NCBI GenBank assembly: GCA_009838765.1
Contig: VXQX01000025.1
Coordinates: forward strand, 1 to 56,410
Length of the DNA: 56,410 nucleotides
Source of the DNA: Gemmatimonadales bacterium
GTDB lineage: Bacteria; Gemmatimonadota; Gemmatimonadetes; Palauibacterales; Palauibacteraceae
Direction: 5' to 3'
The notes beneath the pieces were generated by a model that saw only the letters and a program-made list of their open reading frames with translations, was not told the DNA's origin and made no database searches. Every line of letters begins with the position of its first letter. The stretch's first letter is position 1. Below, in pieces: positions 15,403 to 49,231 of the stretch. Made by a program: the position numbers and the translations under genes.

Positions 15403-17193
15403 TCAGCAGGACACGCAGTTGTGGTTGTTCTTCGAGCCCAGACTCTCGAGCAGGGCCACGGCCTCGGGGAAGGGCTGGGTGCGCTGGTAGGGGCCGTTCG
15501 CCATGTCTGCGGTGGTCTGGCCGACGCGGCTCACGGCGGTCGGGTCCGCGCCGTGCTCGACGAGGAAACGGATGACCTCGAGGTCGCCGCGCGAGGCCGC
15601 GTTGTGGAGCGGCGTGTAGCCCTCGTCGTCGCGCTCGTTCACATCCGCGCCCAGCTCTTCCACCAGGTAGCGGACCGCCGGCAGCCAGCCGGCCGGCACA
15701 TACCGGTGGGCGTTGCTGGGGAAGCCCTGTCCGTAGCCGATGCCGGTCGCGGCGTGGATCGGGTAGTCGGCCGGACCGCCCACGGGCACGGGGGGAACGC
15801 CGGACAGGTCGCGCTTCTCGCGGTCCCAGGCCGGGAGACGCCGCGGGGGTACCTTGATCGTGGCGAGGTGCGGGTCGGCGCCGTGGTGGACGAGGAGTTT
15901 CATCGCTTCCACGTCCAGCGAGTACGCGGCGCGCCAGAAGGGAGTCGCGCCCTTCAGGTCGATCTGCAGCAGGTCGAAGTTGTACGACACCCACCACAGG
16001 TGCTTCTCGAGACGGGCGTCGGGATCCACGCCCGCGTCGAGCAGGCGGCGCATGACGTCGAGATAGCTGTGCCGCTGCTGTCCGTAGGCGTGCTGCTGCG
16101 GGTAGCGCGACTTCGGCGCCCAGTGGGCGTTGACGGCGGCGAAGAGCGGCGTCGCGCCGGCGGCGGAGGCGAGTCGGGGATCGGCCCCGGCCTCGAACAG
16201 CTCGATCGCGAGATCGAAGTGGCCGTTGATCATCGCGATGAGCATCGGGCTCGTGTGGTCGCCGCCGCTCACCTGGTTGACGTCCGCTCCGCTCTCGAGG
16301 AGCGCGCGCACGGTGCCGGCGTGACCTTCGCGGGCGGCGTGAAGCAGGGCAGTCATGCCGCCGTGGCCGCCGATCAGGTCGCCGTAGCCGAGCGGCTCGG
16401 GCTCCTCGATCGGACGCTCGTACTCCTCCTCGTCCTCGACCGCGGGACGGCCCGCGGGGGCGTCGGTGGCGGCGGCCAGCGGCGCATCGGACGGGGCGGG
16501 GCGGGGCGGCACCGGCGGTTCGGGCTCTCCGCGCATCCGCGCGGCGCGGGCGCGGCGGTCGGCCTGCGACCACTCGGCCAGCGCCGTGATGTCGGTGACC
16601 CAGGTGGCGAGCGCGGGATCCGCGCCGCCCTCGAGCAGCGCCCGCACGGCGGCTTCCCGGCCGCGGGCGGCCGCGTACATGAGCGGCGTCTGGCCCCAGC
16701 GGGCTTCGCGCACGTCGGCATCCCCGCCGTGCGCGAGGAGCAGGCGGACGGCATCCGCTTCGCCCGCGCCGGCGGCGAGGTGCAGTGGGGTCGCGCCGCC
16801 CACATCCGCGGTGGTAGCGGTCTGCGCCGCACCCGCTTCGAGAAGGAGGCCCACGACCTCCCCGCCGCCGACTTCGCTCGCGAGGTGCAGCGGCGCGTAG
16901 GCGCCGATGCGGGTGGCGGCGTCGACATCCGCGCCGGCCTCGAGGAGCAGGCGGGCCAGATCGGCGTTCGCGGCGCGCGCCGCCCAGTGGAGCGCGGTCA
17001 TTCCGTCGCCCTGAGGCGCGTTTACGTCGGCGCCCTCGGAGAGCAGCGCCCGCACGGAGGCGAGGTCGCCCGTCATTGCCGCGTCGGCGACCGGCGAATC
17101 GGTCAACAGCGCGCCGCTCAGAAGCACCGCCAGCAGCGCGACCGTCGGCGCCTTCAGCGCCGGGGCCATCCGAAGGCGCCTGCCCCGTTTCAC
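15403..17193 (-). CDS. Exported ankyrin-repeat protein of the DUF1592/DUF1552 operon
   Basis: A 596-residue protein with an N-terminal hydrophobic export signal (LLAVLLSGALL), then about ten ankyrin repeats recognisable by TALHWAARA, APLHLASEVG, TPLHLAAGAG, TPLMYAAARG, TALLHAAREG and TPLHNAASRG. A proline/acid-rich insert at about residues 220-270 splits the array in two. The protein ends in NCVSC, a C-terminal CxxC pair that could bind metal or form a disulphide. The GTG start overlaps the DUF1552 stop by four bases, so the three genes DUF1592, DUF1552 and ankyrin are translationally coupled. I infer a periplasmic scaffold for the other two products. An internal ATG eight codons on is an equally plausible start. 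Confidence 0.85.
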   Translation of the reverse strand: MKRGRRLRMAPALKAPTVALLAVLLSGALLTDSPVADAAMTGDLASVRALLSEGADVNAPQGDGMTALHWAARAANADLARLLLEAGADVDAATRIGAYAPLHLASEVGGGEVVGLLLEAGAAQTATTADVGGATPLHLAAGAGEADAVRLLLAHGGDADVREARWGQTPLMYAAARGREAAVRALLEGGADPALATWVTDITALAEWSQADRRARAARMRGEPEPPVPPRPAPSDAPLAAATDAPAGRPAVEDEEEYERPIEEPEPLGYGDLIGGHGGMTALLHAAREGHAGTVRALLESGADVNQVSGGDHTSPMLIAMINGHFDLAIELFEAGADPRLASAAGATPLFAAVNAHWAPKSRYPQQHAYGQQRHSYLDVMRRLLDAGVDPDARLEKHLWWVSYNFDLLQIDLKGATPFWRAAYSLDVEAMKLLVHHGADPHLATIKVPPRRLPAWDREKRDLSGVPPVPVGGPADYPIHAATGIGYGQGFPSNAHRYVPAGWLPAVRYLVEELGADVNERDDEGYTPLHNAASRGDLEVIRFLVEHGADPTAVSRVGQTTADMANGPYQRTQPFPEAVALLESLGSKNNHNCVSC

Positions 17194-21250: not shown

Positions 21251-23023
21251 TTAACCCTGGCTGGGAGAATCGCCGTGGGGCTTCCGGCGATATTCGACCA
21301 ACGCGGACCGGCCGACGATCCTTAGCAGCCGGATCCAGCGCTCGCTCCCATCGGCGTCTTCCAGATGAAGTACATCGCCCGCCCGAACGTGCACGGGCCG
21401 GAGCATGTTCCCCGTGACTTCTCCGTTAACGGCGATATTCCCCGTCCGGATGCGCGCGTGGTCGAGCGTCGCTACGAACGGTGGAGAACGACCGTCCCTC
21501 GCGATGGTCACGCGCCCCGCCAGGCCCGGAATGGTGCCCGAGCCCTGCGGGAAGATAGTGCCGCCGCCTCCCGGGAGCCGGACGAGGTCGACGGTGATTA
21601 TCCGCTCGGCCGGGAGCCACTCGCGTTCCAGTCTTGCCTCGAAACCGGGAGCGGCCACGAAAAGCGTCAATGCCAGCGCCAGCGGCAGACTCGGTGACGG
21701 ACCGCGAGACTCCAGTTCCAGTATCGCTTCGCCCTGCGCGTCGGTCCTCGCGGACTTCCACCTCACATTCGGGTGATTCGGAGACACCACAAGGACGTCC
21801 GCAGCGGCGATTGGCCGTCCTCCCGAGAGTACGTGAACGACGCCGGCCGCATCACGCAGGGACGCGGCCCGCGCCATCCGCCATGGCAGAAGTTCACCAT
21901 CGGCCCACCGGTGGCGTTCATCTCCACCGTACACGACGACGGGATCGCCGGCAGGCGGCCGGGAGAGGTGACCTCGCACGCGCCGAACGGTGCGCAACAT
22001 GTCCGATGAGGGCGCGCGCGCGGTCCTTGCTTCGAGCAGGGTTCGTCCCCTCGCGTTCTCGATGACCAGATCCGCCTCGACGCCGTTCCGGTCGCGGTAG
22101 AAGGTCAAGCCGTGCTGCCCCAGACCCAGATTGGTCCGGTTCTTCCACGCTTCCGAGACCACCCACGTCCGGAAGATGGCGTCGCGCAGCGGATGTGAAC
22201 GGAGTTGGCCCGGTTCATGGATGTCCAGGAGCCAGCAGGCCAGGCCCGTGTCGCAGAAATAGAGCTTGGGCCCTTTCACGAGACGGTTGCGGATGTTGTC
22301 CTGGAACGCCGGCAGACGAAAGACGATGAAGCTCGTCTCGAGAACATCGATCCACCGTTTGGCCGTTGGTTGGGTTATGCCACAGTCGCTGGCAAGTGAT
22401 GAGTAGTTGAGGAGTTGGCCGGTGCGGCTCGCGCAAGATCCGACGAATCGTTGAAACGTCATCAGGTCTCCGACGTTCAGGATCGCTCGAACCTCGCGCT
22501 CCAGATAGGTGCCGAGGTACGCGCGAAGCCAGGCGGTCGGATCGAGTGCATGATCGAGGATACGCGGATACCCCCCGGTGAAGAGCGCTTCATCGAGATT
22601 GGTGGGGTGGCGCGCGAAGCGTCGGATTTCTCCCCACGTCAGCGGCAGCAGTTCGTGTAGTTCGGTGATCCCGGCCAGCGAATGGACCAGGGACTCCAGG
22701 AGGAGCCGATTCTGGGAGCCGACGAGGACCCAGCGGCCGGGCGCCGGGTCGCTGTCAAGGAAATGCGGCAGGTGGGACAGCAGGTCTGGCGCACGCTGGA
22801 TCTCGTCGATGACCGCACCATCCGGGAGTCCTGCCAGAAAGCCAATCGGGTCGTCGACCGCGAAGCCTCTGATGTCCGGGTCTTCCAGCGTCCGGTACGT
22901 ATGCTCGGGGAACAGTGCCCGGCACAGCGTCGTCTTCCCGCTTTGCCTCGGCCCCGTAAGCGTTACGACGGGCATCGTCGCTGCAACCCGTCTCAGCAAC
23001 GGCGCAAGATCTCGAGCGATCAT
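21251..23023 (-). CDS. AAA ATPase with DUF4143 and an extra C-terminal beta-rich region
   Basis: The 590-residue product starts with an AAA_14 ATPase: Walker A GPRQSGKT at 24-31, Walker B AVIDE at 70-74, and a sensor segment RWVLVGSQN. DUF4143 follows at about 175-400 (GGYPRILD, TYLEREVRAI, GPKLYFCDTGLACWLL). Most proteins of this type end near 380-430 residues. Here about 190 more follow, with a carboxypeptidase-regulatory-like strand pattern (SGGRPIAAADVLVVSPN ... RTDAQGEAILEL) and a second beta block ending in ALVEYRRKPHG. The gene stands alone and its bases are less GC-rich than its neighbours, compatible with transfer. Biological roles of AAA_14/DUF4143 ATPases are poorly known. Confidence 0.8.
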   Translation of the reverse strand: MIARDLAPLLRRVAATMPVVTLTGPRQSGKTTLCRALFPEHTYRTLEDPDIRGFAVDDPIGFLAGLPDGAVIDEIQRAPDLLSHLPHFLDSDPAPGRWVLVGSQNRLLLESLVHSLAGITELHELLPLTWGEIRRFARHPTNLDEALFTGGYPRILDHALDPTAWLRAYLGTYLEREVRAILNVGDLMTFQRFVGSCASRTGQLLNYSSLASDCGITQPTAKRWIDVLETSFIVFRLPAFQDNIRNRLVKGPKLYFCDTGLACWLLDIHEPGQLRSHPLRDAIFRTWVVSEAWKNRTNLGLGQHGLTFYRDRNGVEADLVIENARGRTLLEARTARAPSSDMLRTVRRVRGHLSRPPAGDPVVVYGGDERHRWADGELLPWRMARAASLRDAAGVVHVLSGGRPIAAADVLVVSPNHPNVRWKSARTDAQGEAILELESRGPSPSLPLALALTLFVAAPGFEARLEREWLPAERIITVDLVRLPGGGGTIFPQGSGTIPGLAGRVTIARDGRSPPFVATLDHARIRTGNIAVNGEVTGNMLRPVHVRAGDVLHLEDADGSERWIRLLRIVGRSALVEYRRKPHGDSPSQG

Positions 23024-26523: not shown

Positions 26524-26667
26524 GGTTCTTCTCCTGTTTCCTCGTGCCGGACCGGAATTGGCCGGGACCAAGTCTGACACTGCGGTCGAACAAATCTCCG
26601 GTCCGTGGAAGCCGGCCGGCAAGGGGATCATACCGAGACCGCACGGAAGGTTGCGGTCCCGGGTCCG

Positions 26668-29600
26668 ATGCCGCCCGAGAGCCCGGGTGGCCGCGGAAGC
26701 GGCCGCTCGCCGGAGCCGGTGTTGCGCGGAGCATCACATGCGCGGAAAGTGCCGGAGCGCCGGCGGTCATCTGAAGCGCAACCTGCAATCGGGAGATCGA
26801 AACTGTCGAACACCACTCATACAGGTTCACCGGGGCGTCCTCCAGGTTCACCGGGGCGTCCTCCCCGGCGGACCGGACGGCGGCAGGGGACCTCGCCGAC
26901 CCCGAATGAGCCCGTCGCGATCATCGGCATGGCCTGCCGCTTCCCCGGCAGCAAGAACCTCTCCGGCTTCTGGAGACAGCTCCTGGCCGGCGAGAACGCG
27001 GTGGTGGAGGGCCCGCCCGGCGCCGTCATCGGGCGCCCCGGTCGGCAGTTCCCCCAGTTCAGCGCCAGGAACGAGGCCATCCGTTTCGGGGCCTATGTCG
27101 AAGACCTCGACCTGTTCGACGCGGAGTTCTTTCGCATCTCTCCGATCGAGGCGCAGATGCTCGACCCCCAGCAGCGCATGATGCTGGAGGTGAGCTGGTG
27201 GGCGCTCGAGGACGCGGCCATCGACCCCGGGAGCCTCAAGGGCAGCCGCACCGGCGTCTATGCCGGCATCAGCATCATGGACTACCGGGACATGGCGATC
27301 TCGGATCCCGGCACGAGCGAGGCCGCGGCCGGGCTCTACGCCGCCACCGGCAACGCGCTGAACACGGCCATCGGCCGGGTCTCCTTCGTTCTCGGCCTCG
27401 AAGGGCCGTCGATGGCGATCGACACCGCCTGCTCATCCTCGCTGGTCGCCATCCACCAGGCCGTGGCCGGGCTCCAGCGTGGTGAGGCGGACCTGGTTCT
27501 GGCCGGCGGCGTCCATGCCCAGTTCGCCGGACGACCGCTCGAGCTGCGCGCCAACGCGGGAATGCTGTCGCCGACGGGCCAGTGCTGGACCTTCGACGCG
27601 GCCGCCGACGGTTTCGTCTCCGGCGAGGGCTGCGGCCTGATCGTCCTCAAGCGCCTCAGCGACGCCAAGGCGGACGGTGACCGGATCTGGGCCGTCATTC
27701 CCGGCTCGGCGGTCAATCAGGACGGCGCCAGCCAGGGCTTGACCGTGCCCAGCGCTCCGTCCCAGGAAAAGGCGATGGAGGAGGCCCTGGCGCGGGCCGG
27801 CGCCTCCCCCTCCGACGTCGACTACCTGGAGACCCACGGCACCGGCACGATCGTCGGCGATCCCATCGAGCTGAACGCGGCGGCAGCCGTCTACGGACGC
27901 GAGCGCGACGCGGAACACCCCCTGCTGGTCGGTTCCGTCAAGACGAACATCGGACACCTCGGACCCGCCGCCGGCGTCGCGGGCCTGATCAAGGCGGTCC
28001 TGGCGATGAGACACGGGGTCATTCCGCGTCACCTGAACTTCAGCAACCCGAACCCCAACATCGACTGGGACCGCCTGCCTGTCCGCGTCACCGACGGGAT
28101 GACGGACTGGCCCATCCACCCGGGTCGCCCCCGCCTGGCCGGCGTCAACTCGTTCGGTTGGTCGGGGACCAACGGCCACGTGCTGGTGCAGGGCTACGAC
28201 GAACTGAAACCCGCGGCCGGCCGCGCTCGCGCTTCCTTCCCCGTCGGTCTCCGCCGGCCCGTCGGCGTCCGGGCGGAACCGAGGGGGGAACCGGGTGGGC
28301 GGGACACCCGCCTTCTGCCGCTCTCGGCCAGATCGCCCGGAGCGCTTCACGACCTGGCTCGACGCTACCTGTCCTGGCTCGATGAACAGCCGGACCCGGA
28401 CCTCGCGGACCTGGCCTGGACGGCCGCGGTCGGGAGGGGCCACCTGGCGCACCGGGCCGGCCTGGTCTTCAGCGACGTCGCCCAGCTCCGGCAGCAACTG
28501 GGGGACCTGGCCGCCGGAGAAAGCGGCGACGCCCCCCGGGAAGCGAAGAAGGTGGCCTTCGTCTTCACCGGCCAGGCCAGTCAATGGCCCGGAATGGGCC
28601 GGGCTCTGTACGAACGGGAGCCCGTGTTCCGCGCGGTACTCGACCGCTGCGACCGGCTGCTCTCCGAAGACCGCGCGGTCTCTCTGCTCGAAGTCATGTT
28701 CGAAGAGAACGGGACCGATGGCCTGCTCGACGAACCGACCTGGACACAACCCGCCATCTACTCGCTGGAGTGCGCCCTGGTCGCGCTCTGGGAGAGCCTG
28801 GGCGTCCGGCCGAGCGTTGTCGTCGGACACAGCCTGGGCGAGATCGCGGCGGCGCGGGCGGCGGGCGGCTTCACTCTCGAGCAGGGCCTCCGATACGCCG
28901 CCGCCCGTGGCACCCTGATGGGCGCCACGCGCCCCGATGGCGCGATGGCCGCCATCTTTGCCCCCGCCTCCCGCGTCGCCGAAGCGGTGGCCGCGCACAA
29001 CGCCGACTCGAACGACGAGGACATCTCCGTTGCCGTCGACAATGGAGCGCAGCAGGTCGTTAGCGGGCCGGCCGCCGAGATCGAGAAGGTGCTCGCGCAG
29101 TTCGAAGCCGAGGGGGTCAAGGTGCACCGGCTGCGGCGGAGCCCCGCGTATCACAGCGCCCTGATCGAGCCGGCCCTGGACGAGCTGGAAGCCGCCGTCC
29201 GGAAGATTGCCCCCTCGCCTCCGGCCCTTTCCGTCCCTCTGGTCAGCAACATCACGGGCCGTCTGCTCGACCCGGACGCGCACATGGACGCCGCGTACTG
29301 GTGTCGCCACGCACGCGAGCCCGTGGCGTTTCGGAGCAGCGTCGAGACTCTGGCGGAGATGGGAGTCGATGCGGTCGTGGAGGTCGGCCCGCATGCCGTG
29401 CTGGGGCCTGTCGTCTCGATGGTCTGGCCCGCGTCGGCTCCGGCGGCATCCCCGCCGGTTCTCGCCAGTCTTCGGCGTCCGCCCCGAGAGGCGGAGGAGC
29501 CGTGCATCGACACCAGTGGCGGCTTCATGGAAGCAGTTGCCGGCGTCTACGAAGCGGGCCTCGACATCGAGTTCGAAAGCCTGTTCGCCGGCGAGGCGCG

Positions 29601-31434
29601 GCGCCGCATCACCCTGCCGGGCTATCCCTTCCAGCGTATCCGGCACTGGGTCCGGCTGTCGAAGCGCCGCCAGAAAGCCGATGGACATCCGCTGCTCGGC
29701 GTCCGGCACGAGTCGCCCCGCGGCGAAGTCATGTTCGAGACGGAAGTGTTCGCATCCGATCCCGCGTGGCTGCTGGATCACCTGGTGTACGAACAGGTGG
29801 TCGTCCCCGGCGGGCTCCACGGCGGCATGGCGGTCTCGGTCGCACTGAGCCGAGGCGACGGGCCGGCGGTCGTGGACGAGTTGCAGATCTACAGCCCGCT
29901 GATGCTCGACGAGGAGGATCCGGAAACGGGCGGCGGAGGCCGCTCCCTGCAGTTCGTTCTGGACGGGTCGGACGACCTCGCCGAGCGTCCCTTCGAGATC
30001 TTCACGAAGGGAGAGGGCGAGGAGAGATGGACCCTGCACGCCGGCGGTCGGCTCTCCTCGGGAAGGTCGGACATCGAACCGCTCTCCCCGCTCGACCCGG
30101 AGGCGCTCAAAGCCCGGTTGACGCCCCAGGATCCCGTTGCCTTTTACCGAATGCGGTCCCGGACCGGCATCTACCTCGGCCCGTCCTACCACACGATCGA
30201 GTCCGCCTGGGCAACGGAAGGAGAGGCCCTGGCCACACTCGCGCTCAGCGATTCCGTCGACGCGACCGGGATGGAGCTGCATCCGCTGCTGCTGGACGGT
30301 TGCTTCCAGGTCCTGTCGCTGGCTCGCCACCACACCGTTTCCGAGCAGGGGGCGGTGTACATGCCCTTCGGCTGGCAGAGGCTGTGGGTGGCGGGACCGA
30401 TGCCCACCAGGCTCCTCTGCCATGCCACGGTGAGGGGATCCGCCGCGCGGAACGGAGCGGACGCCGCGTCTTCGGAACCGCCCGAAGTCGTGACCGGGGA
30501 CGTTCGGTTCTACTCCATGGAAGGGGCGCCGCTGGGCGGTCTGTTCGGCTTCACGGTCAAGCGGGCCAGGCGCGGCGCCCTCCTCTCGGCGAGGGCCGGG
30601 CTGAGGGACCTGCAGTACGAGGTCGCGTGGCGGGAGCAGCCGCTGGCCGGAAGCATGCCCGCCGCAGACTTCCTGGCGAGCCCGGCAACCGTCGCCGGCC
30701 GGTCGCGCACGCTCGCCGACCACCTGGCGGATCGTGACGTCGAAGCGGCGGACCGGGTCATCCTGCTCCGGGACCTCGAGCGGCTTTCCCAGGCCTACGT
30801 GCTGTCGGCGCTCGAGAGAATGGGGTGGCAGCGCCGAGCGGGGGCGGAGGTCTCGCCCGAGGACCTTCGGCGTGAACTGAACGTCTTTGACGAGCACCGG
30901 CGCCTGTTCCGGCGACTCCTGGCCATCCTGTCGGAGGCGGGCATCCTGAGCCGCTCCGGCGGGGGCTACGTCGTGGCGGCCGGAGTCGGCGACCCGCTCC
31001 CGGACGAAGCCCTGGCGGACCCAGAGGGTTTCGCCGCGAGGTGTCGGGACAGGCACCCTCACGGAACCAACGAGCTCGGTCTGCTCTGCCGCTGCGGCCC
31101 GGCTCTCGCCGAGGTGCTCCGGGGAAGCACGGATCCGATGACCTTGCTGTTCAGCGACGAAGGCCCCGGCGCGGCGGGCGTGTACCTTCAGGCGCCGGCC
31201 AACCGCGCGGCGAATCGGATGCTCGGAGACGCGGTCGAGGCGGCAATCTCCGGCCTGCCCGAGCATCGCCGACTGCGGGTAGCGGAAGTGGGAGCGGGGA
31301 CCGGTTCCGCCACCGAGGCGATCCTCCCGCGCCTGTCCTCCGACCGGGTCGACTACACCTTCACCGACATCTCGGCAGGCTTCTTTTCGCAGGCCGAAGG
31401 GCGCCTGGCCCGGACCGGCGCCCCGATCGAGTAA
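26668..31434 (+). CDS. Type I PKS megasynthase 1, N-terminal part (KS-AT-DH-partial cMT), ended by in-frame TAA
   Basis: This is the 5' half of a fully reducing iterative-type PKS. KS (26911-28195) has DTACSSS with Cys codon 27430, His codons in ETHGTGT and KTNIGH. AT (28550-29450) has GHSLG (Ser codon 28831) and PAYHS near 29145, closest to malonyl-type ATs. DH (29686-30590) has LLDHLVYEQVVVPGG and LLLDGCFQ. The cMT domain begins with EVGAGTGSAT and is cut at TAA 31432. The same frame reopens and continues the cMT without shift, and the paralogue at 43571 has TAC there. The start is unclear: GTG 26605 and ATG 26668 lack a good ribosome site, while gggag precedes a CTG at 26803 close to where the paralogue begins. 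Confidence 0.85.
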   Translation: MPPESPGGRGSGRSPEPVLRGASHARKVPERRRSSEAQPAIGRSKLSNTTHTGSPGRPPGSPGRPPRRTGRRQGTSPTPNEPVAIIGMACRFPGSKNLSGFWRQLLAGENAVVEGPPGAVIGRPGRQFPQFSARNEAIRFGAYVEDLDLFDAEFFRISPIEAQMLDPQQRMMLEVSWWALEDAAIDPGSLKGSRTGVYAGISIMDYRDMAISDPGTSEAAAGLYAATGNALNTAIGRVSFVLGLEGPSMAIDTACSSSLVAIHQAVAGLQRGEADLVLAGGVHAQFAGRPLELRANAGMLSPTGQCWTFDAAADGFVSGEGCGLIVLKRLSDAKADGDRIWAVIPGSAVNQDGASQGLTVPSAPSQEKAMEEALARAGASPSDVDYLETHGTGTIVGDPIELNAAAAVYGRERDAEHPLLVGSVKTNIGHLGPAAGVAGLIKAVLAMRHGVIPRHLNFSNPNPNIDWDRLPVRVTDGMTDWPIHPGRPRLAGVNSFGWSGTNGHVLVQGYDELKPAAGRARASFPVGLRRPVGVRAEPRGEPGGRDTRLLPLSARSPGALHDLARRYLSWLDEQPDPDLADLAWTAAVGRGHLAHRAGLVFSDVAQLRQQLGDLAAGESGDAPREAKKVAFVFTGQASQWPGMGRALYEREPVFRAVLDRCDRLLSEDRAVSLLEVMFEENGTDGLLDEPTWTQPAIYSLECALVALWESLGVRPSVVVGHSLGEIAAARAAGGFTLEQGLRYAAARGTLMGATRPDGAMAAIFAPASRVAEAVAAHNADSNDEDISVAVDNGAQQVVSGPAAEIEKVLAQFEAEGVKVHRLRRSPAYHSALIEPALDELEAAVRKIAPSPPALSVPLVSNITGRLLDPDAHMDAAYWCRHAREPVAFRSSVETLAEMGVDAVVEVGPHAVLGPVVSMVWPASAPAASPPVLASLRRPPREAEEPCIDTSGGFMEAVAGVYEAGLDIEFESLFAGEARRRITLPGYPFQRIRHWVRLSKRRQKADGHPLLGVRHESPRGEVMFETEVFASDPAWLLDHLVYEQVVVPGGLHGGMAVSVALSRGDGPAVVDELQIYSPLMLDEEDPETGGGGRSLQFVLDGSDDLAERPFEIFTKGEGEERWTLHAGGRLSSGRSDIEPLSPLDPEALKARLTPQDPVAFYRMRSRTGIYLGPSYHTIESAWATEGEALATLALSDSVDATGMELHPLLLDGCFQVLSLARHHTVSEQGAVYMPFGWQRLWVAGPMPTRLLCHATVRGSAARNGADAASSEPPEVVTGDVRFYSMEGAPLGGLFGFTVKRARRGALLSARAGLRDLQYEVAWREQPLAGSMPAADFLASPATVAGRSRTLADHLADRDVEAADRVILLRDLERLSQAYVLSALERMGWQRRAGAEVSPEDLRRELNVFDEHRRLFRRLLAILSEAGILSRSGGGYVVAAGVGDPLPDEALADPEGFAARCRDRHPHGTNELGLLCRCGPALAEVLRGSTDPMTLLFSDEGPGAAGVYLQAPANRAANRMLGDAVEAAISGLPEHRRLRVAEVGAGTGSATEAILPRLSSDRVDYTFTDISAGFFSQAEGRLARTGAPIE
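26822..26863. repeat. 21-bp tandem duplication near the megasynthase 1 start
   Basis: Two exact head-to-tail 21-bp copies, encoding GSPGRPP twice if translated, lie just upstream of the first KS domain. The flexible, proline-rich segment is absent from the paralogous megasynthase. Confidence 0.85.
31432..31434 (+). other. Premature TAA inside the methyltransferase domain of megasynthase 1
   Basis: The codon TAA falls where the paralogue has TAC (Tyr) in PIEYRALDIE. The local bases are gagTAAaggcgcctg against gagTACagggcgctg in the paralogue. Reading frame and homology continue on both sides. A true nonsense mutation, readthrough or a base-call error are all possible. Confidence 0.9.
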
Positions 31435-31497
31435 AGGCGCCTGGACATCGAGACGGATCCGGCGGCACAGGGGTTCGACGCTCACAGCTACGACCTG

Positions 31498-37332
<5,835 letters not shown>

Positions 37333-38917: not shown

Positions 38918-41900
38918 GTGAGGACTCACGGGAACGGGCGGACGCGCGAACCCGGTGAACCCATCGCGATCGTGGGCATGGCGTGCCGGTTCCCCGGCAG
39001 CAGGAGCCTGTCCGATTTCTGGCGACAACTGATCGCGGGCGAGAACGCGGTCGTCGAAGGCCCTCCCGGCTCCGTCATCGGACGCGCGGGCCGGCTCTTC
39101 CCGGACTCCGGCGGCGAGAACCGTGCCCTCCGTTTCGGGGCGTTCATCGAAGACCTCGACCAGTTCGATGCGGACTTCTTCCGCATCTCTCCCATCGAAG
39201 CCCAGATGCTCGATCCGCAGCAGCGCATGATGCTGGAGGTGAGCTGGCACGCGCTCGAAGATGCGGGGATAGACCCCGGGAGCCTGAAGGGCAGCCGCGC
39301 CGGGGTCTTCGTCGGCATCAGCAACAACGACTACCGGGACATGGTCATCGATGCGCCGGAGACCGCCGATACCGCGGTCGGCTTCTACGCCGTGACCGGC
39401 ACGGCCCTCAACACGGCCATCGGCCGCGTCTCCTTTGCACTGGGCCTCGAGGGGCCCTGCATGGCGATCGACACCGCCTGCTCATCGTCGCTGGTTGCCC
39501 TCCACCAGGCGGTCGGGGCCCTGCAGCGCGGCGAGACGGATCTGGCCTTGTCCGGCGGCGTCCACATCTACCTTGCCGGACGTCCGCTCGAGTTGCGGGC
39601 CAACGCCGGCATGTTGTCGCCCGAGGGACAGTGCAAGGCATTCGATGCGGCGGCCGATGGCTTTGTGTGCGGTGAAGGCTGCGGTTTGCTGGTTCTGAAG
39701 CGCCTGGACGCGGCGGAAGCAGCGGGCGACCGGATCTGGGCCGTCATCCGCGGCTCATCGGTCAATCAGGACGGCGCGAGCCAGGGGCTGACCGTGCCCA
39801 GCGGCCCTTCGCAGGAGAAGGCCATGGCAGAGGCGCTTGCCCGAGGAGGCGTCTCGCCGTCCGATGTGGACTACCTGGAGGCCCACGGCACGGGGACGGT
39901 GGTCGGAGATCCGATCGAACTCGGTGCCGCGGCGGCCGTCTACGGGCGCGGGCGCACGTCGGCGAACCCGTTCCTGGTCGGGTCCGTCAAGACCAACATC
40001 GGACACCTGGGGCCCGCCGCCGGCGTCGCGGGCGTGATCAAGGCCGTGTTGGCGATGAGGCACGGGGTGATCCCCCGGCATCTCAACTTCAACGATCCGA
40101 CACCGAGCGTGGATTGGGATCGCCTGCCCGTGCGCGTAACCGACGTCATGACGGACTGGCCGCTCCATCCGGACAGGCGGCCGCTGGCCGGCGTCAATTC
40201 CTTCGGCTGGTCCGGGACGAACGCCCACGTCGTACTCGAGGGATACGGAGAAGCCGTAACGGAAACGGCAACCGACGCGGCTTCCGGTCCCGCCACGCTG
40301 CGCCCCCCCGTCGGTCCCGCGATTCCCGTGCCGGTGTCCGCCTCCACGCCCGAGGCCGCGGACCCGAGTGACGCCCGCACGACCCGGTTCCTGCCCTTGT
40401 CGGGCAAATCGCCGGCGGCGCTTGGCGATGTCGCGTCGCGGCATCTGTCCTGGCTTGCCGAGCACTGGCGTGACGAACGTGAGGGAGAGCGGTCCGGGGC
40501 CGACACGATCGCCGACATGGTCTGGACCGCCGCATCGGGCCGAAGCCACTTCGCCCACCGCGCCGGCGTACTGTTCAGCGATGTCGCCGAACTGCGCCGG
40601 AAACTTGCACGCCTCGCCGAAGATCAGGGTCCGGAAGCCGGCGTGGCGCCGGTGCGTGCGACCAACGTGGCTTTCGTCTTCACGGGACAGGCCAGTCAAT
40701 GGGTCGGCATGGGCAGGGCGCTATATGAGAGGGAGCCTGTTTTCCGCTCCGTCCTCGACCGCTGCGACGGACTCCTTCTGGAGGAGCGCGGCGTCTCGCT
40801 GTTGGACGTCATGTTCGGGAGCGAGGGGGCGGACGGGACGGACGGCCTGCTGGATGAGGCGGCGTGGACCCAGCCGGCGATCTATGCCCTCGAATGCGCC
40901 CTGACGGCGCTCTGGGAGAGTGTCGGCGTGGAGCCGAGCGTGGTCGTGGGCCACAGCCTCGGAGAGATGGCGGCGGCGCAGGCGGCGGGCGTGTTCGGCC
41001 TCGAGGACGGCTTGCGCTTCGCCGCGGCCCGCGGTGCGCTGATGGGCGCCACGCGCAGCGATGGCGCCATGGCCGCGATCTTCGCCCCAACCGCTCGCAT
41101 CGCCTCCGCGGTGGCGGAACGGAACGCTGCCTCGGACGATGTCGACCTGAGCGTCGCCGTCGACAACGGACTGCAGCAGGTCGTCAGCGGGCCCGCGAAG
41201 GATCTCGAGGCGGTTCTGGCACGCTTCGAGGCCGAAAGAGTGAAGGTGGTGCGCCTGCGACGGAGCCCCGCCTATCACAGCGCCCTCATCGAGCCCGCGC
41301 TGGACGATCTCGAAGCCGCCGTCCGCGATATCACGCCCGCTCCGCCATCTCCATCCGTGCCTTTCGTGAGCAACCTGACGGGACGGTTGCTGGAGCCGGA
41401 CGAACGGATGGATGCCGCCTACTGGCGACGGCAGGCGCGGGAGCCGGTGGCCTTCCGCCGTTCGGTGGAGACGCTGGCGGAACTCGGTGTCGATGCCGTC
41501 GTGGAGATCGGCCCCCACGCCGTCCTTGGCCCGGTGGTCGCCATGACGTGGCCCGAGACGGCGCCCTCCGGCCCGCCCGTCATTCTCGCGAGCCTCCGGC
41601 GGCCGCCGCGGGATCCCGCGGAGCCGGTGGCGGACCCAAGCGGGGGCTTCGTGGAGGCCGTGGCGGGGGCCTACGAGGCCGGAATGGAGATCGGGTTCCC
41701 CGGCCTGTTCGCCGGGGAGACCCGGCGCCGCATCTCGCTCCCCGGATATCCGTTCCAGCACAGTCACCACTGGATCCCGAGATCGAGGCGTCGGCGAACG
41801 GCCGCCGGCCATCCCCTGCTCGGCATGCGGCATGAATCGCCCCGCGGCGAGATCACGTTCGAGACGGAGATGTTCGCTTCGGATCCCGCCTGGCTGCAGG

Positions 41901-44900
41901 ACCACCTCGTGTACGACCGCATCGTCGCTCCCGGGGCACTCCACGGCGCCATGGCGGTGTCCGTGTCTCTGGCCGGCCGCGGCGGCTCGGCGACCGTGTC
42001 GGACATGCAGCTGCACAATCCCTTGATCTTCGAAAGCGAGGATGGCGAGGACCCGGAAGACGGGGCGCATGGCGCGGGCCGCAAGCTGCAGTTCGTTCTG
42101 AGCGGACCCGACGATGCCACGGTGGATGCCGCGGCGGATGCTGCGGCGGAAACCCCGGAGCGTCGATTCGAGGTGTTCAGCAAGGGGGAAACCGAAGAGA
42201 CGTGGACCCTTCACGCCGGCGGCAGGCTTTCATGGGGTACGTCCGGCGCTGCCGCCGGCCCCGGAGAGGCTCCGCACGTCGATCTGGATGAGCTGAGAGC
42301 CCGACTGCCGCGCCGTGATCCGGCGGAGTTCTACCGACTGCGATGGAGCGGCGACATTCATCTCGGCCCAGCGTATCACACGCTCCAGGCCGTCTGGGCC
42401 GGAAAAGGCGAAGCCCTGGGGGAACTGGCCCTCGGCGATTCGGTGGATGCGAGCGGCATGGAGATGCATCCCCTCCTCCTCGACGGCTGTTTCCAGATCT
42501 CGGCCATCGCCCGACATCTGATGAAAGTCGAGCAGGGCGCGGTCTACCTGCCTTTCGGATGGGAATCTCTTTGGGTGGCGGGCCCACTGCCGGACCGGGT
42601 CGTGTGCCACGCCGTCCTGAGGACTCCCGGGTCGGAGGACGGGGCGGACACGCCGCCGCAAGTCGTGACGGGCGACGTTCGGCTCTATGCCGCGGACGGC
42701 ACGCCCGTCGGCGTGCTGAAGGGCTACACCGCCAAGCGGGCGACCCGATCCGCGCTCCTTTCCGCCGAGGGCGGGGTCAAGGACCTGCTGTACGAGGTGG
42801 CATGGCGGAAGAAGCCCCTGAGTGGGGGGATGCGTGCCGCGGATTATCTGACGGATCCCGAGGTCGTCGCGAGCCGGTCCCCGACGTTCGTCGAATACCT
42901 GGCGCAGGAAGGCGTCAAAGGCCCGGACAGAGCCGCTCTACTGAAAGATCAGGAGACGTTGTCGAGGGCATACGCCTGCGCGGCGCTCGACAGCCTGGGG
43001 TGGGAGCGCGAAGCCGGCGAAGCGGTCCGGCCGGACGACCTTCGCCGCCAACTGGGGGTGACGGACGATCACCGGCGCCTGTTTGTCCGGCTCCTCGACC
43101 TGGCGGCGGGCGACCCGCGCCCGGACGGCCCGCACGGATCCGACGGCTCTCTCCTCGATCCCGGACCGCTGGCCGAGCGGTTCATTGACGGACATCCGCA
43201 CGGGATCAACGAACTCGGTCTTCTTCGCCGATGCGGTTCGGCTCTCGCGGAGGTGTTGCGGGGTCGCAGAGACCCGCTCGGCTTGCTGTTCGGCGACGAC
43301 GGGCCGAGCGCCGCGAGCCTGTACCTGACAGCCCCCGCGTCGCGCGCGGCGAACCGAATGCTCGGGGATGCGGTGGCCGCGGCTGTGTCGGGTCTTCCCG
43401 GGAATCGGCGGCTGCGGATCCTGGAAGTCGGTGCGGGGACCGGTTCGGCGACGGAGTCGATTCTCCCGCTCCTCCCCTCCGGCCGGTTCGACTACACGTT
43501 CACGGATATCTCGGCGGGGTTCTTCGCGCAGGCCGAAGCGCGTTTCGCCGCTACCGGCGCTCCGATCGAGTACAGGGCGCTGGACATCGAGGCCTCACCC
43601 GAAGCCCAGGGGTTCGAGGCCCATGCCTACGATCTCGTGATCGCCGCGAACGTGCTGCACGCGACCCGGGACCTCGGCGAGACGCTCGCGCACTGTCGCG
43701 ACCTCCTGGCCCCCTCGGGTCTGTTGCTGGCGCTGGAAGGACTGCGCCGCCGGGCATGGCAGGATCTGACGTTCGGACTTCTGGATGGATGGTGGCGTTT
43801 CGAGGACGACTACCGCCCCGACCATGCGCTCGCGACTCCGGCCGTATGGCGCCGAGCCCTGGGCGATGCAGGGTTCCTCGACATCGAGTTCCCCGGGCTT
43901 GCGAACCCCGATACGGACGAACCCCTGGGCTCGAACGTGATCATCGCCCGGGGACCGCGGAACGTGGCGCTCTCGCCGGGCGTGTGGGTCCTGGCGGCCG
44001 ACGAAACCGGTCGAGCCGCCGAGATGGCCGCCGGGCTGGCCAGGGCGCTCGCCTCCCGAGACCAGACGGTGGTCTTCGCCGGAGACGCCGGAGATGATCC
44101 GTCGACGGTCGACGTGACTCGGCGGGAGTCCTGGCGAGCCCTGTTGGCGGGGCTTCCCGCGGGTGTCCCGTTGAAGGGCGTGGTGCACCTCGCCGCTCTG
44201 GATGGGCACGGGGCGGCAGCGACCACCGAGCAAATGGCCGAGGACGTCGCGCGTGTCGGGTCCAGCGCCCTGGCTCTCGTTCAGGGCCTCATCGACACCG
44301 GCGCGACGCCGACCGACGGCGTGTGGTTCGTGACGCGGGGCGCGCAGGTCCTGGAAGAAGACCTTCTGGCGAGAAGCGCGGGGGAACTTGCCGGCTCGAC
44401 TCTGTGGGGGTTCGGGAAGGTGATGGCCCTCGAGGCGGCGCACCTCCGACCGAGGTTGATCGACCTCGACCCCGGGGCGGCGGGGACCGCGGAGACGGTT
44501 TCGAATCTTGCCCGGGAAGTCCTCTTTCCCGATGCCGAGACGCACATCGCCTATCGGGGAGGCTCCCGCCAGGGCGCCCGGCTGGTGCGCCTGGGCGCCG
44601 GCCGTGCCCCGCTCGCCTTGCCGGAGGATGCGGATTGGGTCGTCGGGCCCACGGACCCGGCGGCCGGCCTGTCGGCGCTGGGAGCGAAGCCGCGCCCGAA
44701 ATCCCCGCTGGAGCCCGGCGAGGTCCGGATCTCGGTGGAGGCCGTGGGGCTCAACTTCGCCGACGTGCTCCTCAGCATCGGCGCCGTGCCGTACGACCGG
44801 GAGATCGGCCGCGAGATGTACGGCCGCGTGCTGGAGACGGCTCCCGATGTGGAGGACCTCTCCGCGGGGGATGCGGTCGTCGGATTGGGCTTCGGCTCGT

Positions 44901-47900
44901 ACACGCCGGAGATGGTGACGTCGGCGGTCGCGCTGGCTCCCGCCCCCGATGGGTTCTCCGCGCCCGCGCTGGCCACGATGCCCGTCTGCTTCGTGACGGC
45001 TGAGCTCGCCTTCGAGATGGCGGGATTGACGGCCGGCGAACGCGTACTGGTCCACGCGGGAACCGGAGGCGTCGGCCTTGCCGCGATCCAGCTTGCGCGC
45101 GCCGCGGGCGCCGACGTCTTCGCAACCGCGAGTGTGGCGAAGCAGCCCTGGCTTCGCTCCCTCGGCGTCGACCACGTCTTCGACAGCCGGCAGACCGACT
45201 TCGGCGAAGAAATCCTCGCTGCCACGGGCGGCGAGGGGGTTCACGTCGTGTTGAACAGCCTCACCGGCGAGGGCTTCATCGAAGCGAGCCTGTCCTGCCT
45301 GGGGACGCGAGGCCGCTTTGTCGAAATCGGGAAGCGGGAGATCTGGAGCGAAGAAGAGATGTCGGCGGCACGTCCGGATATCGCCTACTCCTTGCTGGAT
45401 CTGGACGGGGTGAAGTTGACCGATCTCGCTCGGGCCGGCGCCTCCCTGGCGCGGGTCATGGGGCGGCTCTCGTCCGGCGAGCTGAGGCCGCTGCCTCACA
45501 CCGTCTGGCCCCTATCGGAGCTCCAGGCGGCCCTCGACGTCATGCGCGACGCCCGGCACACCGGCAAGAACGTCGTGCGGATGCCTCCTTTCGCACGGGA
45601 CGGCCTGCGCCCGGACCGGACGTACCTGGTGACGGGCGGGCTGGGAGGGATCGGCTGCGCGGTCGCCCGCTGGCTGGCCGAGAAGGGGGCCGCGACGATC
45701 GTCCTGAACGGGCGCCGCGCCCCCGACCCCGACGCGGAAGCTGCGATCCGCGAGCTGCGGGAGGGTGGCGTCGATGTTCGGGTGGAAGTGGCCGACGTAA
45801 CGGATTCCGCGGCCATCGATCGCATGCTGACCCGGATCGACGAGACCCTGCCGCCGCTCGGCGGCGTGGTACACAGCGTGGGCGTGCTGTCGGACGGCGT
45901 CATTGAGAACCAGAACTGGGAACGGTTCGAGGAGGTCCTGTGGCCCAAGGTGCTGGGAGCCTGGCATCTGCACCGGGCCACCATGGCGCTCGACCTCGAT
46001 CTTTTTGTCCTCTTCTCCAGCGTCACCGGCGTCGTGGGAAACCCGGGCCAGACCAACCACGCCGCCGCCAACGCCTTCCTCGACCAGGTTGCCGCCCACC
46101 GGCGCGCCCTCGGTCTCCCCGGTCAGGCCATCGCCTGGGGAGCGTGGTCGGGAATCGGGGAAGCGGAAGAGCAGCGGGAGAGGATCGAGAAACAATTGGC
46201 GTACACCGGCGCGGGCTGGATCACGCCGAGGCAGGGGATCGAAGCCTTCGACTGGCTGGTCCGGCAGGACGTGACCCAATCCACGGTCACCAGCGTTGAC
46301 TGGTCGGTCAGCGGAGAGGGGCTCGAATCCCGGCCTCGCTTCCTCGAAGACCTGATCGTCACGAAGAAAGCCAGGCGCGGGACGGGTGAAGCCCCGGCTT
46401 CCTCCGACGGCCTGATGTCCCGGCTGCGGGAGGCCCCGGCTGACGACAAGGAGAATCTCCTGTCGGCCTTCATCCAGGAGGAACTGAAGGCCGTGTTGAG
46501 ACTGCCGTCATCCCCCTCGGCCACAGCGAGCTTCTTCGATCTGGGCATGGACTCGCTGATGGCCGTGGAGTTGCGGAATCGGCTGAACCGCGCGTTTGCC
46601 GGGGAGTACGCGGCATCCAACACGGTCGTGTTCGACTACCCCAACTCCGCCGGTCTCGCGGAACACCTGTCGAAGGAGCTCGGCGCCCTGACCGGCGCGG
46701 AGCCGGCGACCGAGCCCGTAGCGGAGCCGGTCACGGAAGTGGCGGAGTCGGCCACGGAACCTGTGGCGCCGGCCGTCCGCACGCAGTTCCGCCGCGACGA
46801 CGACGACATCGCCATCGTCGGCATGGCCTGCCGATTCCCGGGTGCGCCGGATATCGACGCCTTCTGGCGGCAGCTTGAGGAGGGCGAGGACGCGGTCAGC
46901 GAGGGCCGTGCGGATCGGGGCTCATGGGAGGGCGTGGTCGGAGATCCGGGGGCCGAGGACCCGCTGCACCGACGGGGTGCTTTCGTCGAGGACATCGACC
47001 GGTTCGACTCGCGGTTCTTCCGCATCGCACCCATTGAGGCGCGGACGATGGACCCTCAGCAGCGGATGCTGCTGGAGACCAGTTGGCAGGCTATCGAGGA
47101 CGCGGGCATCGATCCCGGCCGGCTGGCTGGCAGCCGCACCGGCGTATATGTCGGCGTCGGCGGCAGCGAATACCGGGACCTGTTCGCCTCCCGGGGGCAG
47201 CCACTGGACTACGGCGGCACCAACGAGGCGATGACGGTCGGACGGGTCGCCTTCGCCCTGGGCCTCGAAGGGCCGGCGATTCCGCTGGATATGGCCTGTG
47301 CATCGTCCCTGGCCGCGGTGCACCAGGCGGTGGCGGGTCTGCAGAGGGACGAAGTCGACATGGCACTTGCGGGCGGTGTCAACGCCATCCTGTCGCCCGG
47401 AATCGCCGACTTCCTCGCGGAGTTGGGGGTGTTGTCCCCCAGCGGCCGCTGCCGTGCGTTCGACGCGGCCGCAGACGGCTTCGTCCGCGGCGAGGGATGC
47501 GGCATGATCGTCCTCAAGCGGCTGGCCGACGCCCGCGACGACGGTGACCGCATCTGGGGCGTCGTCCACGGTTCCGCGGTGAACCAGAGCGGGCGGAGTG
47601 CGGAACTGATGGCCCCCAACGGGCCGACCCAGGAACGGGTCATGGAGGAGGCGCTCGCGCGGGCCGGCGTCGACCCCGGCGAGGTCGACTATCTCGAGGC
47701 CCAGGGAGTGGGCAGCGAATTCGGTGACCCCATTGAGCTGAACGCCGTGGCCGCCGTCTACGGCCGGGGTCGCGACGCGGACGATCCTCTCCTCGTCGGT
47801 TCGGTCAAGACGAACATCGGCCACCTGGAGTGGGCCGCCGGGATCGCGAGCCTGATCAAGACGGTGTTGGCGATGAGCCGCGGTGTGATTCCCGGCAACC

Positions 47901-49231
47901 TGCACTTCCGGGACCCGAGTCCGCTCCTCGACTGGAAGAGCCTCCCGGTGCGCGTCGCCTCCGGCGCCACGGCGTGGCCGGGCCACTCCGGGAGAGCGCC
48001 TCTCGCCGCGGTGAACACCTTCGGGCTTTCGGGTGCGAACGCGCACGTCGTCGTGGGTGGATACGCGAACCCGGCTGCGGACGATGGCACCGTCTGGCCC
48101 GCAGGACCCGTTCGCACCGTCGCGGTCACCGGCACGACGGCCCCGGGAGGACTCGGAGAACGGACGACCCGTTTCCTGCCCCTTTCGGGCAAGTCCCCGG
48201 ACGCCCTGCGGGAGCTGGCTCGACGCTACCTGGAATTCGTTGGGAAACCGGATGGTTCGAGTCTGGCCGATGTGGCATGGACCGCGGGCAGGGGGAGAAG
48301 TCACTTCGCCTACCGCGCCGGATTGGTGTTCGACGATCTCGCACAACTTCAGGAGGGGCTTCGGGATGTGGCCGCAGGAAGACGAGGGCCCGCTGACCCG
48401 GAACCGCTGGAAGCGCCCCGGACCGCCTTCCTGTACACCGGCGGGTCCCGTAGCTGGGCGGGCATGGGACAGGCCCTGTACGAGACGGAACCGGTCGTGC
48501 GCGAGGTGCTCGACACCTGCGAAGAAGTGTGGCGGGGAGAGCGTGGCGCCTCGCTACTGGAGGTGCTGTTCGGGAAGGACGGAGCGAAGGACGATGTCGG
48601 CGACGCCGGCGAGGCAACGTCGGTCGGGGCCTCGATCTACGCGCTCCAGTGCGGTCTCACGGCGCTTTGGAGGAGTGTCGGGATAAGCCCGACCCCCGTA
48701 GTCGGATGCAGCGTCGGCGAACTCGCGGCGGCGCAGGCCGCCGGCGTGTGGGGTCTGGAGGAAGGGTTGCGGCTCTGGGCGGAGTTGGGAGGACGCGAGG
48801 CTCCGAGGGACATCGCGCTCGCCGCGCCTGCCGTGACCCTGGTGAGTGGCGCGACGGGGGCGGCGGTTGGGTCCGGCGACGCGCGCGACGTGACGTATTG
48901 GCAGCGGTCGGTGCGCGAGCTGCCGGCCATTGACCGCTGCCTCCGGACGCTGGCGGAGATGGAGGTGCCGGTCGTGGTGGAGATCGGCCCGGAAAGCGTG
49001 CTGGCGCCGATGGTCACGCAGCGCCCGGGGGAGGGCACCGCACCCGTCTTGCTTTCCAGCCTGAGCGCCGTGCAGCCTGCGGACGGCTTCGTGGCGGCGG
49101 TGGCCGGGGCGTACGAGGCGGGGCTCGAGATCTCCTTCGAGGGACTGTTTGCCGGCGAGGCTCGGTCGCGCGTGCCGCTGCCCGGCTATCCCTTCCAGCG
49201 CCGCCGCCACTGGCTCGAGGCCGTGGCTTGA
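38918..49231 (+). CDS. Type I PKS megasynthase 2 (KS-AT-DH-cMT-psiKR-ER-KR-ACP-KS*-AT*)
   Basis: An intact 3437-residue megasynthase. KS 12-440 (DTACSSS, Cys188), AT 582-895 (GHSLG, Ser680; PAYHS), DH 964-1281 (LQDHLVYDRIVAPGA; LLLDGCFQ), cMT 1288-1681 (EVGAGTGSATES; AANVLHATRD), psiKR 1685-1901, ER 1928-2224 (HAGTGGVGLAA), KR 2231-2455 (VTGGLGGIG; GQTNHAAAN, His for Tyr), ACP 2512-2588 (GMDSLMAVEL, Ser2546). A second KS (2629-3048) has DMACASS (Cys2794), but the first His is Gln2929 (EAQGVGS). A shortened AT (3168-3378) follows, with GCSVG. It should iterate to make C-methylated, fully reduced chains. There is no TE domain. GTG 38918 follows aggggggact. The stop overlaps the permease start. 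Confidence 0.92.
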   Translation: MRTHGNGRTREPGEPIAIVGMACRFPGSRSLSDFWRQLIAGENAVVEGPPGSVIGRAGRLFPDSGGENRALRFGAFIEDLDQFDADFFRISPIEAQMLDPQQRMMLEVSWHALEDAGIDPGSLKGSRAGVFVGISNNDYRDMVIDAPETADTAVGFYAVTGTALNTAIGRVSFALGLEGPCMAIDTACSSSLVALHQAVGALQRGETDLALSGGVHIYLAGRPLELRANAGMLSPEGQCKAFDAAADGFVCGEGCGLLVLKRLDAAEAAGDRIWAVIRGSSVNQDGASQGLTVPSGPSQEKAMAEALARGGVSPSDVDYLEAHGTGTVVGDPIELGAAAAVYGRGRTSANPFLVGSVKTNIGHLGPAAGVAGVIKAVLAMRHGVIPRHLNFNDPTPSVDWDRLPVRVTDVMTDWPLHPDRRPLAGVNSFGWSGTNAHVVLEGYGEAVTETATDAASGPATLRPPVGPAIPVPVSASTPEAADPSDARTTRFLPLSGKSPAALGDVASRHLSWLAEHWRDEREGERSGADTIADMVWTAASGRSHFAHRAGVLFSDVAELRRKLARLAEDQGPEAGVAPVRATNVAFVFTGQASQWVGMGRALYEREPVFRSVLDRCDGLLLEERGVSLLDVMFGSEGADGTDGLLDEAAWTQPAIYALECALTALWESVGVEPSVVVGHSLGEMAAAQAAGVFGLEDGLRFAAARGALMGATRSDGAMAAIFAPTARIASAVAERNAASDDVDLSVAVDNGLQQVVSGPAKDLEAVLARFEAERVKVVRLRRSPAYHSALIEPALDDLEAAVRDITPAPPSPSVPFVSNLTGRLLEPDERMDAAYWRRQAREPVAFRRSVETLAELGVDAVVEIGPHAVLGPVVAMTWPETAPSGPPVILASLRRPPRDPAEPVADPSGGFVEAVAGAYEAGMEIGFPGLFAGETRRRISLPGYPFQHSHHWIPRSRRRRTAAGHPLLGMRHESPRGEITFETEMFASDPAWLQDHLVYDRIVAPGALHGAMAVSVSLAGRGGSATVSDMQLHNPLIFESEDGEDPEDGAHGAGRKLQFVLSGPDDATVDAAADAAAETPERRFEVFSKGETEETWTLHAGGRLSWGTSGAAAGPGEAPHVDLDELRARLPRRDPAEFYRLRWSGDIHLGPAYHTLQAVWAGKGEALGELALGDSVDASGMEMHPLLLDGCFQISAIARHLMKVEQGAVYLPFGWESLWVAGPLPDRVVCHAVLRTPGSEDGADTPPQVVTGDVRLYAADGTPVGVLKGYTAKRATRSALLSAEGGVKDLLYEVAWRKKPLSGGMRAADYLTDPEVVASRSPTFVEYLAQEGVKGPDRAALLKDQETLSRAYACAALDSLGWEREAGEAVRPDDLRRQLGVTDDHRRLFVRLLDLAAGDPRPDGPHGSDGSLLDPGPLAERFIDGHPHGINELGLLRRCGSALAEVLRGRRDPLGLLFGDDGPSAASLYLTAPASRAANRMLGDAVAAAVSGLPGNRRLRILEVGAGTGSATESILPLLPSGRFDYTFTDISAGFFAQAEARFAATGAPIEYRALDIEASPEAQGFEAHAYDLVIAANVLHATRDLGETLAHCRDLLAPSGLLLALEGLRRRAWQDLTFGLLDGWWRFEDDYRPDHALATPAVWRRALGDAGFLDIEFPGLANPDTDEPLGSNVIIARGPRNVALSPGVWVLAADETGRAAEMAAGLARALASRDQTVVFAGDAGDDPSTVDVTRRESWRALLAGLPAGVPLKGVVHLAALDGHGAAATTEQMAEDVARVGSSALALVQGLIDTGATPTDGVWFVTRGAQVLEEDLLARSAGELAGSTLWGFGKVMALEAAHLRPRLIDLDPGAAGTAETVSNLAREVLFPDAETHIAYRGGSRQGARLVRLGAGRAPLALPEDADWVVGPTDPAAGLSALGAKPRPKSPLEPGEVRISVEAVGLNFADVLLSIGAVPYDREIGREMYGRVLETAPDVEDLSAGDAVVGLGFGSYTPEMVTSAVALAPAPDGFSAPALATMPVCFVTAELAFEMAGLTAGERVLVHAGTGGVGLAAIQLARAAGADVFATASVAKQPWLRSLGVDHVFDSRQTDFGEEILAATGGEGVHVVLNSLTGEGFIEASLSCLGTRGRFVEIGKREIWSEEEMSAARPDIAYSLLDLDGVKLTDLARAGASLARVMGRLSSGELRPLPHTVWPLSELQAALDVMRDARHTGKNVVRMPPFARDGLRPDRTYLVTGGLGGIGCAVARWLAEKGAATIVLNGRRAPDPDAEAAIRELREGGVDVRVEVADVTDSAAIDRMLTRIDETLPPLGGVVHSVGVLSDGVIENQNWERFEEVLWPKVLGAWHLHRATMALDLDLFVLFSSVTGVVGNPGQTNHAAANAFLDQVAAHRRALGLPGQAIAWGAWSGIGEAEEQRERIEKQLAYTGAGWITPRQGIEAFDWLVRQDVTQSTVTSVDWSVSGEGLESRPRFLEDLIVTKKARRGTGEAPASSDGLMSRLREAPADDKENLLSAFIQEELKAVLRLPSSPSATASFFDLGMDSLMAVELRNRLNRAFAGEYAASNTVVFDYPNSAGLAEHLSKELGALTGAEPATEPVAEPVTEVAESATEPVAPAVRTQFRRDDDDIAIVGMACRFPGAPDIDAFWRQLEEGEDAVSEGRADRGSWEGVVGDPGAEDPLHRRGAFVEDIDRFDSRFFRIAPIEARTMDPQQRMLLETSWQAIEDAGIDPGRLAGSRTGVYVGVGGSEYRDLFASRGQPLDYGGTNEAMTVGRVAFALGLEGPAIPLDMACASSLAAVHQAVAGLQRDEVDMALAGGVNAILSPGIADFLAELGVLSPSGRCRAFDAAADGFVRGEGCGMIVLKRLADARDDGDRIWGVVHGSAVNQSGRSAELMAPNGPTQERVMEEALARAGVDPGEVDYLEAQGVGSEFGDPIELNAVAAVYGRGRDADDPLLVGSVKTNIGHLEWAAGIASLIKTVLAMSRGVIPGNLHFRDPSPLLDWKSLPVRVASGATAWPGHSGRAPLAAVNTFGLSGANAHVVVGGYANPAADDGTVWPAGPVRTVAVTGTTAPGGLGERTTRFLPLSGKSPDALRELARRYLEFVGKPDGSSLADVAWTAGRGRSHFAYRAGLVFDDLAQLQEGLRDVAAGRRGPADPEPLEAPRTAFLYTGGSRSWAGMGQALYETEPVVREVLDTCEEVWRGERGASLLEVLFGKDGAKDDVGDAGEATSVGASIYALQCGLTALWRSVGISPTPVVGCSVGELAAAQAAGVWGLEEGLRLWAELGGREAPRDIALAAPAVTLVSGATGAAVGSGDARDVTYWQRSVRELPAIDRCLRTLAEMEVPVVVEIGPESVLAPMVTQRPGEGTAPVLLSSLSAVQPADGFVAAVAGAYEAGLEISFEGLFAGEARSRVPLPGYPFQRRRHWLEAVA
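46803..49050 (+). other. Terminal degenerate KS-AT pair of megasynthase 2
   Basis: KS* keeps its Cys (codon 47297) and the second His (TNIGHLE) but has CAG (Gln, 47702) for the first catalytic His. AT* keeps a Ser (codon 48710) in GCSVG but lacks the ferredoxin-like subdomain and the AYHS histidine. Both losses predict little or no condensation or malonyl loading. Confidence 0.8.

Follow-up and report, generated by a model that had tools for sequence, protein, structure and literature searches.

An in-frame stop codon, private to one assembly, in the first synthase of a tandem sup-type pair from Candidatus Palauibacter: a possible young nonsense allele or a consensus error

Two synthase genes of the sup type, PKS1 and PKS2, lie in tandem on a contig of Candidatus Palauibacter, a sponge-associated genus of the Gemmatimonadota. 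The window analyzed here is that whole contig (56,410 nucleotides), which belongs to a MAG of 3.6 Mb in 96 contigs. The order Palauibacterales is part of a phylum known from sponges and corals, among other places (PMC10469786). Both synthases have the domain order KS-AT-DH-MT-ER-KR-ACP-KS-AT (Table 1). The KS-AT pair 3' of the ACP is degenerate: the second AT of PKS1 carries GFDAGE, not GHSxGE, and the second KS of PKS2 has a Gln in its HGTGT-type motif (LEAQGVGS). A permease gene lies directly 3' of PKS2 (49228-50997); in the relative G001 (L026, 16511-18280), codon 229 of this gene is an in-frame TAG in place of the window's TGG, and the G016 copy differs by a one-base gap. The window also encodes, on the minus strand, a long ankyrin-repeat protein (15403-17193), and proteins of this kind are often found in sponge symbionts.

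The frame of PKS1 is interrupted in the assembled sequence by a TAA. Counted in the mechanical frame that starts at 26605, it is codon 1610 and the only stop in 3,575 codons (26605-37329), with the natural stop at 37330-37332. The first-pass annotation had placed this TAA inside the methyltransferase of the first megasynthase, and the Pfam domains agree: the C-methyltransferase (MT) is cut between its SAM motif, EVGAGTG, on the 5' side and NVLHAT and FGLLDGWW on the 3' side, and the frame then stays open for 5.9 kb. The stop had also been said to part KS-AT-DH from the rest, which is what Pfam finds, with half of the MT staying on the 5' side and the other half continuing into ER-KR-ACP-KS-AT. 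Aligned to relatives, the homologous frame runs free of stops for thousands of bases on each side, far more than chance would allow. The further claim that the intact paralogue has TAC here, within a homologous frame on both sides, can be widened, as a sense codon is present in the paralogue and in all orthologues covering the site.

Table 1. Coordinates in the window of PKS1, PKS2 and the features discussed in the text.
Feature	Position	Strand	Basis or remark
PKS1, 5' part	26605..31434	+	Pfam, tblastn; true start uncertain, homology from near 26785-26900
PKS1, 5' domains	KS ~26908-28041; AT 28558-29415; DH 29686-30576; MT N-terminal part from ~30769	+	Pfam
In-frame TAA, codon 1610	31432..31434	+	sense (Tyr/Phe) in 80/80 relatives
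PKS1, 3' part (same frame, rest of MT onward)	31435..37332	+	Pfam
First in-frame GTG past the TAA	31498..31500	+	without ribosome-binding site
PKS1, 3' domains	ER ~32587-33450; KR 33493-34023; ACP 34345-34542	+	Pfam
PKS1, second KS and short degenerate AT	KS 34657-35766; AT 36334-36708	+	Pfam
Poly-C/G-rich tract in PKS1, probable assembly artefact	37030..37153	+	16 bp instead in both close relatives
PKS2, intact tandem paralogue, domain order as PKS1	38918..49231	+	Pfam

Among the best 80 of at least 521 public loci found with tblastn, the codon encodes Tyr in 77, Phe in 3 and a stop in none, and the MT of CurJ (5thy) has Tyr at the equivalent position. Within the genus, every homologue covering the site has TAC, including the tandem paralogue and the closest covering orthologue, that of G009 (~90% identity locally). 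On these comparisons the stop occurs in this assembly alone, and relatives are intact at the site. The PKS1 copy of G011 is 89% identical, and its contig stops 14 codons before the site. The G009 locus (L024, G009:C5) switches abruptly into unrelated sequence past PKS1 residue 1817, which looks like a chimeric join. The two closest genomes, G001 and G016, are 96-98% identical to this one in the DNA that they share with it and have an assembly gap at the site; thus, the mutation is not datable within the species group.

Comparison with three Acidobacteria orthologues gives a dN/dS of 0.19-0.21 upstream of the TAA and of 0.19-0.20 past it, similar to the 0.16-0.23 obtained for intact pairs. Along its own branch, since diverging from G001, this genome has accumulated 13 nonsynonymous and 27 synonymous changes in residues 2002-3400; under neutrality, 69% would be nonsynonymous (P ~2e-6). 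The 3' half has been under purifying selection even on this branch, until very recently. Because the 3' half has not decayed, the stop must be very young, or absent, or the 3' half must still be used.

Readings in which the interrupted gene is functional are, taken together, quite improbable. In a two-protein split, the 3' half would be made from an internal start and would work with the 5' half; the long open 3' frame and the purifying selection on it fit this proposal, although the selection is accounted for by a history in which the gene was intact. A split PKS would be expected to break at a domain border, to have a start signal and to share the break with relatives, whereas this break interrupts the core of the MT, immediately N-terminal to the LDIE strand of the CurJ structure, and no relative is divided at this site. 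The GTG that follows the stop had been described as lacking an obvious ribosome site, and indeed has no Shine-Dalgarno sequence; the first GTG with a five-base match resembling one, at 32608, is already past the MT. We therefore regard the split as extremely unlikely. Programmed readthrough or recoding of the TAA has an equally minimal chance. The frame and the selection do carry on past the TAA, but a stop conserved in relatives is found in 0 of the 80 and in none of the genus relatives covering the site. Moreover, the RNA fold 3' of the TAA is no better than that of shuffled sequences (z -0.02), no ochre-reading anticodon occurs among the 46 tRNAs found in this genome (ARAGORN), and TAA also terminates an ordinary-looking gene at 21251-23023. 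It is likewise highly unlikely that a genuine, fixed TAA leaves the synthase as two separately produced proteins (or is passed by low-level readthrough), so that its methylation step is altered or tuned. The four options of the first-pass annotation are thus reduced on these grounds to nonsense mutation and error.

A consensus or assembly error has a substantial chance of being the explanation, somewhat short of even. The organism would then have an intact gene, and the base would be a miscall or come from a mosaic assembled out of the numerous sup variants that coexist in a single sponge. PKS1 itself contains a 124-bp in-frame poly-C tract 5.6 kb downstream of the TAA, where G001 and G016 have 16 bp, and this tract is most likely a sequencing or assembly artefact. 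Further C20/G20 runs occur in this genome, and those of relatives are often ~100 bp away from contig ends. Junk of this type is what poly-G reads from two-colour Illumina sequencing produce. Contigs of four congeners end or turn chimeric inside the PKS1 gene, and two PKS1-type contigs of other assemblies terminate at residues 1596 and 1602, no more than 14 codons short of the stop at 1610; this gathering of contig ends near the stop was spotted after the fact and is suggestive. Frameshifts or stops at unrelated places are carried by 9 of the best 80 of at least 521 sup genes. A single sponge has yielded no fewer than 123 supA variants, and 15% of the sequences had frameshifts whose origin was unknown (PMC4245539). 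Against an error, no cluster of odd bases was found around the TAA, where substitutions occur at normal density (12 private changes per 300 sites), and no 21-mer spanning the TAA matches any other sup locus compared; thus, a simple chimera with the compared loci is not seen. Base substitution errors are also uncommon in short-read consensus sequence at good coverage.

The explanation to which we give slightly better than even odds is a real and recent nonsense allele in PKS1 of this strain or of part of its population. A change of one base, C to A, in the conserved Tyr codon would have created a private nonsense substitution, and the protein would be cut short past KS-AT-DH, halfway through the MT. 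The product would lack ACP, ER and KR, so PKS1 would not work; PKS2 next door is intact and may cover the loss. A sole disruption in 3,575 codons, a conserved Tyr/Phe and purifying selection on both halves fit a PKS1 that was intact until recently, and the lack of a ribosome site, RNA fold, suppressor tRNA or conserved split leaves two readings, loss of function through a very recent mutation or an error in the consensus. The evidence for a nonsense mutation is equally compatible with a base error, and we infer both that the base is real and that no useful 3' protein is made. No second disabling change in the frame lends support to real decay. As a background, the 150 kb shared by the sampled G000 and G001 stretches contain 4 candidate private stops in 64 genes: three are in the initial 12% of their frames, and the remaining one, 38% along, is in a frame lacking third-position bias. 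Too small to separate error from mutation, this sample thus offers no convincing private stop in mid-gene.

Taken as an ordinary copy that is either broken or misread, PKS1 would carry little weight beyond annotation. If the stop were confirmed in reads, it would suggest functional redundancy of the tandem sup synthases. Breaks in sup genes of assembled symbiont genomes, such as those in the nine relatives above, should not be counted as biology without reads.

Nothing was found to set PKS1 apart from ordinary nonsense pseudogenes or from the broken synthase genes of MAGs, which likewise have one break in an otherwise intact frame, at an unshared place. CurJ comes from a cyanobacterial multimodular pathway. 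Its C-methyltransferase (PDB 5thy) aligns with the MT of PKS2 across 290 residues (E 3.6e-60), the Tyr that precedes LDIE among them, and differs from PKS1 in having no stop. Both PKS2 and the two halves of PKS1 combined have, by Pfam, the single module KS-AT-DH-MT-ER-KR-ACP, an order that we take to be the definition of supA, followed by the degenerate second KS-AT. Mid-chain methyl-branched fatty acids are the proposed products of supA, the type I PKS named sup for sponge symbiont ubiquitous (PMC4245539, PMC3908369). PKS1 and PKS2 share with it a one-module reducing architecture with a C-methyltransferase, and are likened to it via domain order and distribution. The spread of SUP clusters has been described as independent of taxonomy (PMC9426513), and the distribution found here matches: members of the family occur at no fewer than 521 places in public genomes of prokaryotes, and the best 80 of these are all in MAGs, whose labels (Acidobacteria, Chloroflexi, Nitrospira, Gemmatimonadota, Proteobacteria and others) place it across phyla, presumably in symbionts of marine sponges. 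The closest full-length relatives of PKS1 are from Acidobacteria (Holophagales and Terriglobia; L043-L047), and their protein identity of 81-85% suggests that synthases of this type have been transferred between phyla. One sup clone includes a permease named SupE (PMC3908369), and here a permease gene follows PKS2. PKS1 differs from the sup PKS in its stop inside the MT and in its tandem arrangement with an intact paralogue.
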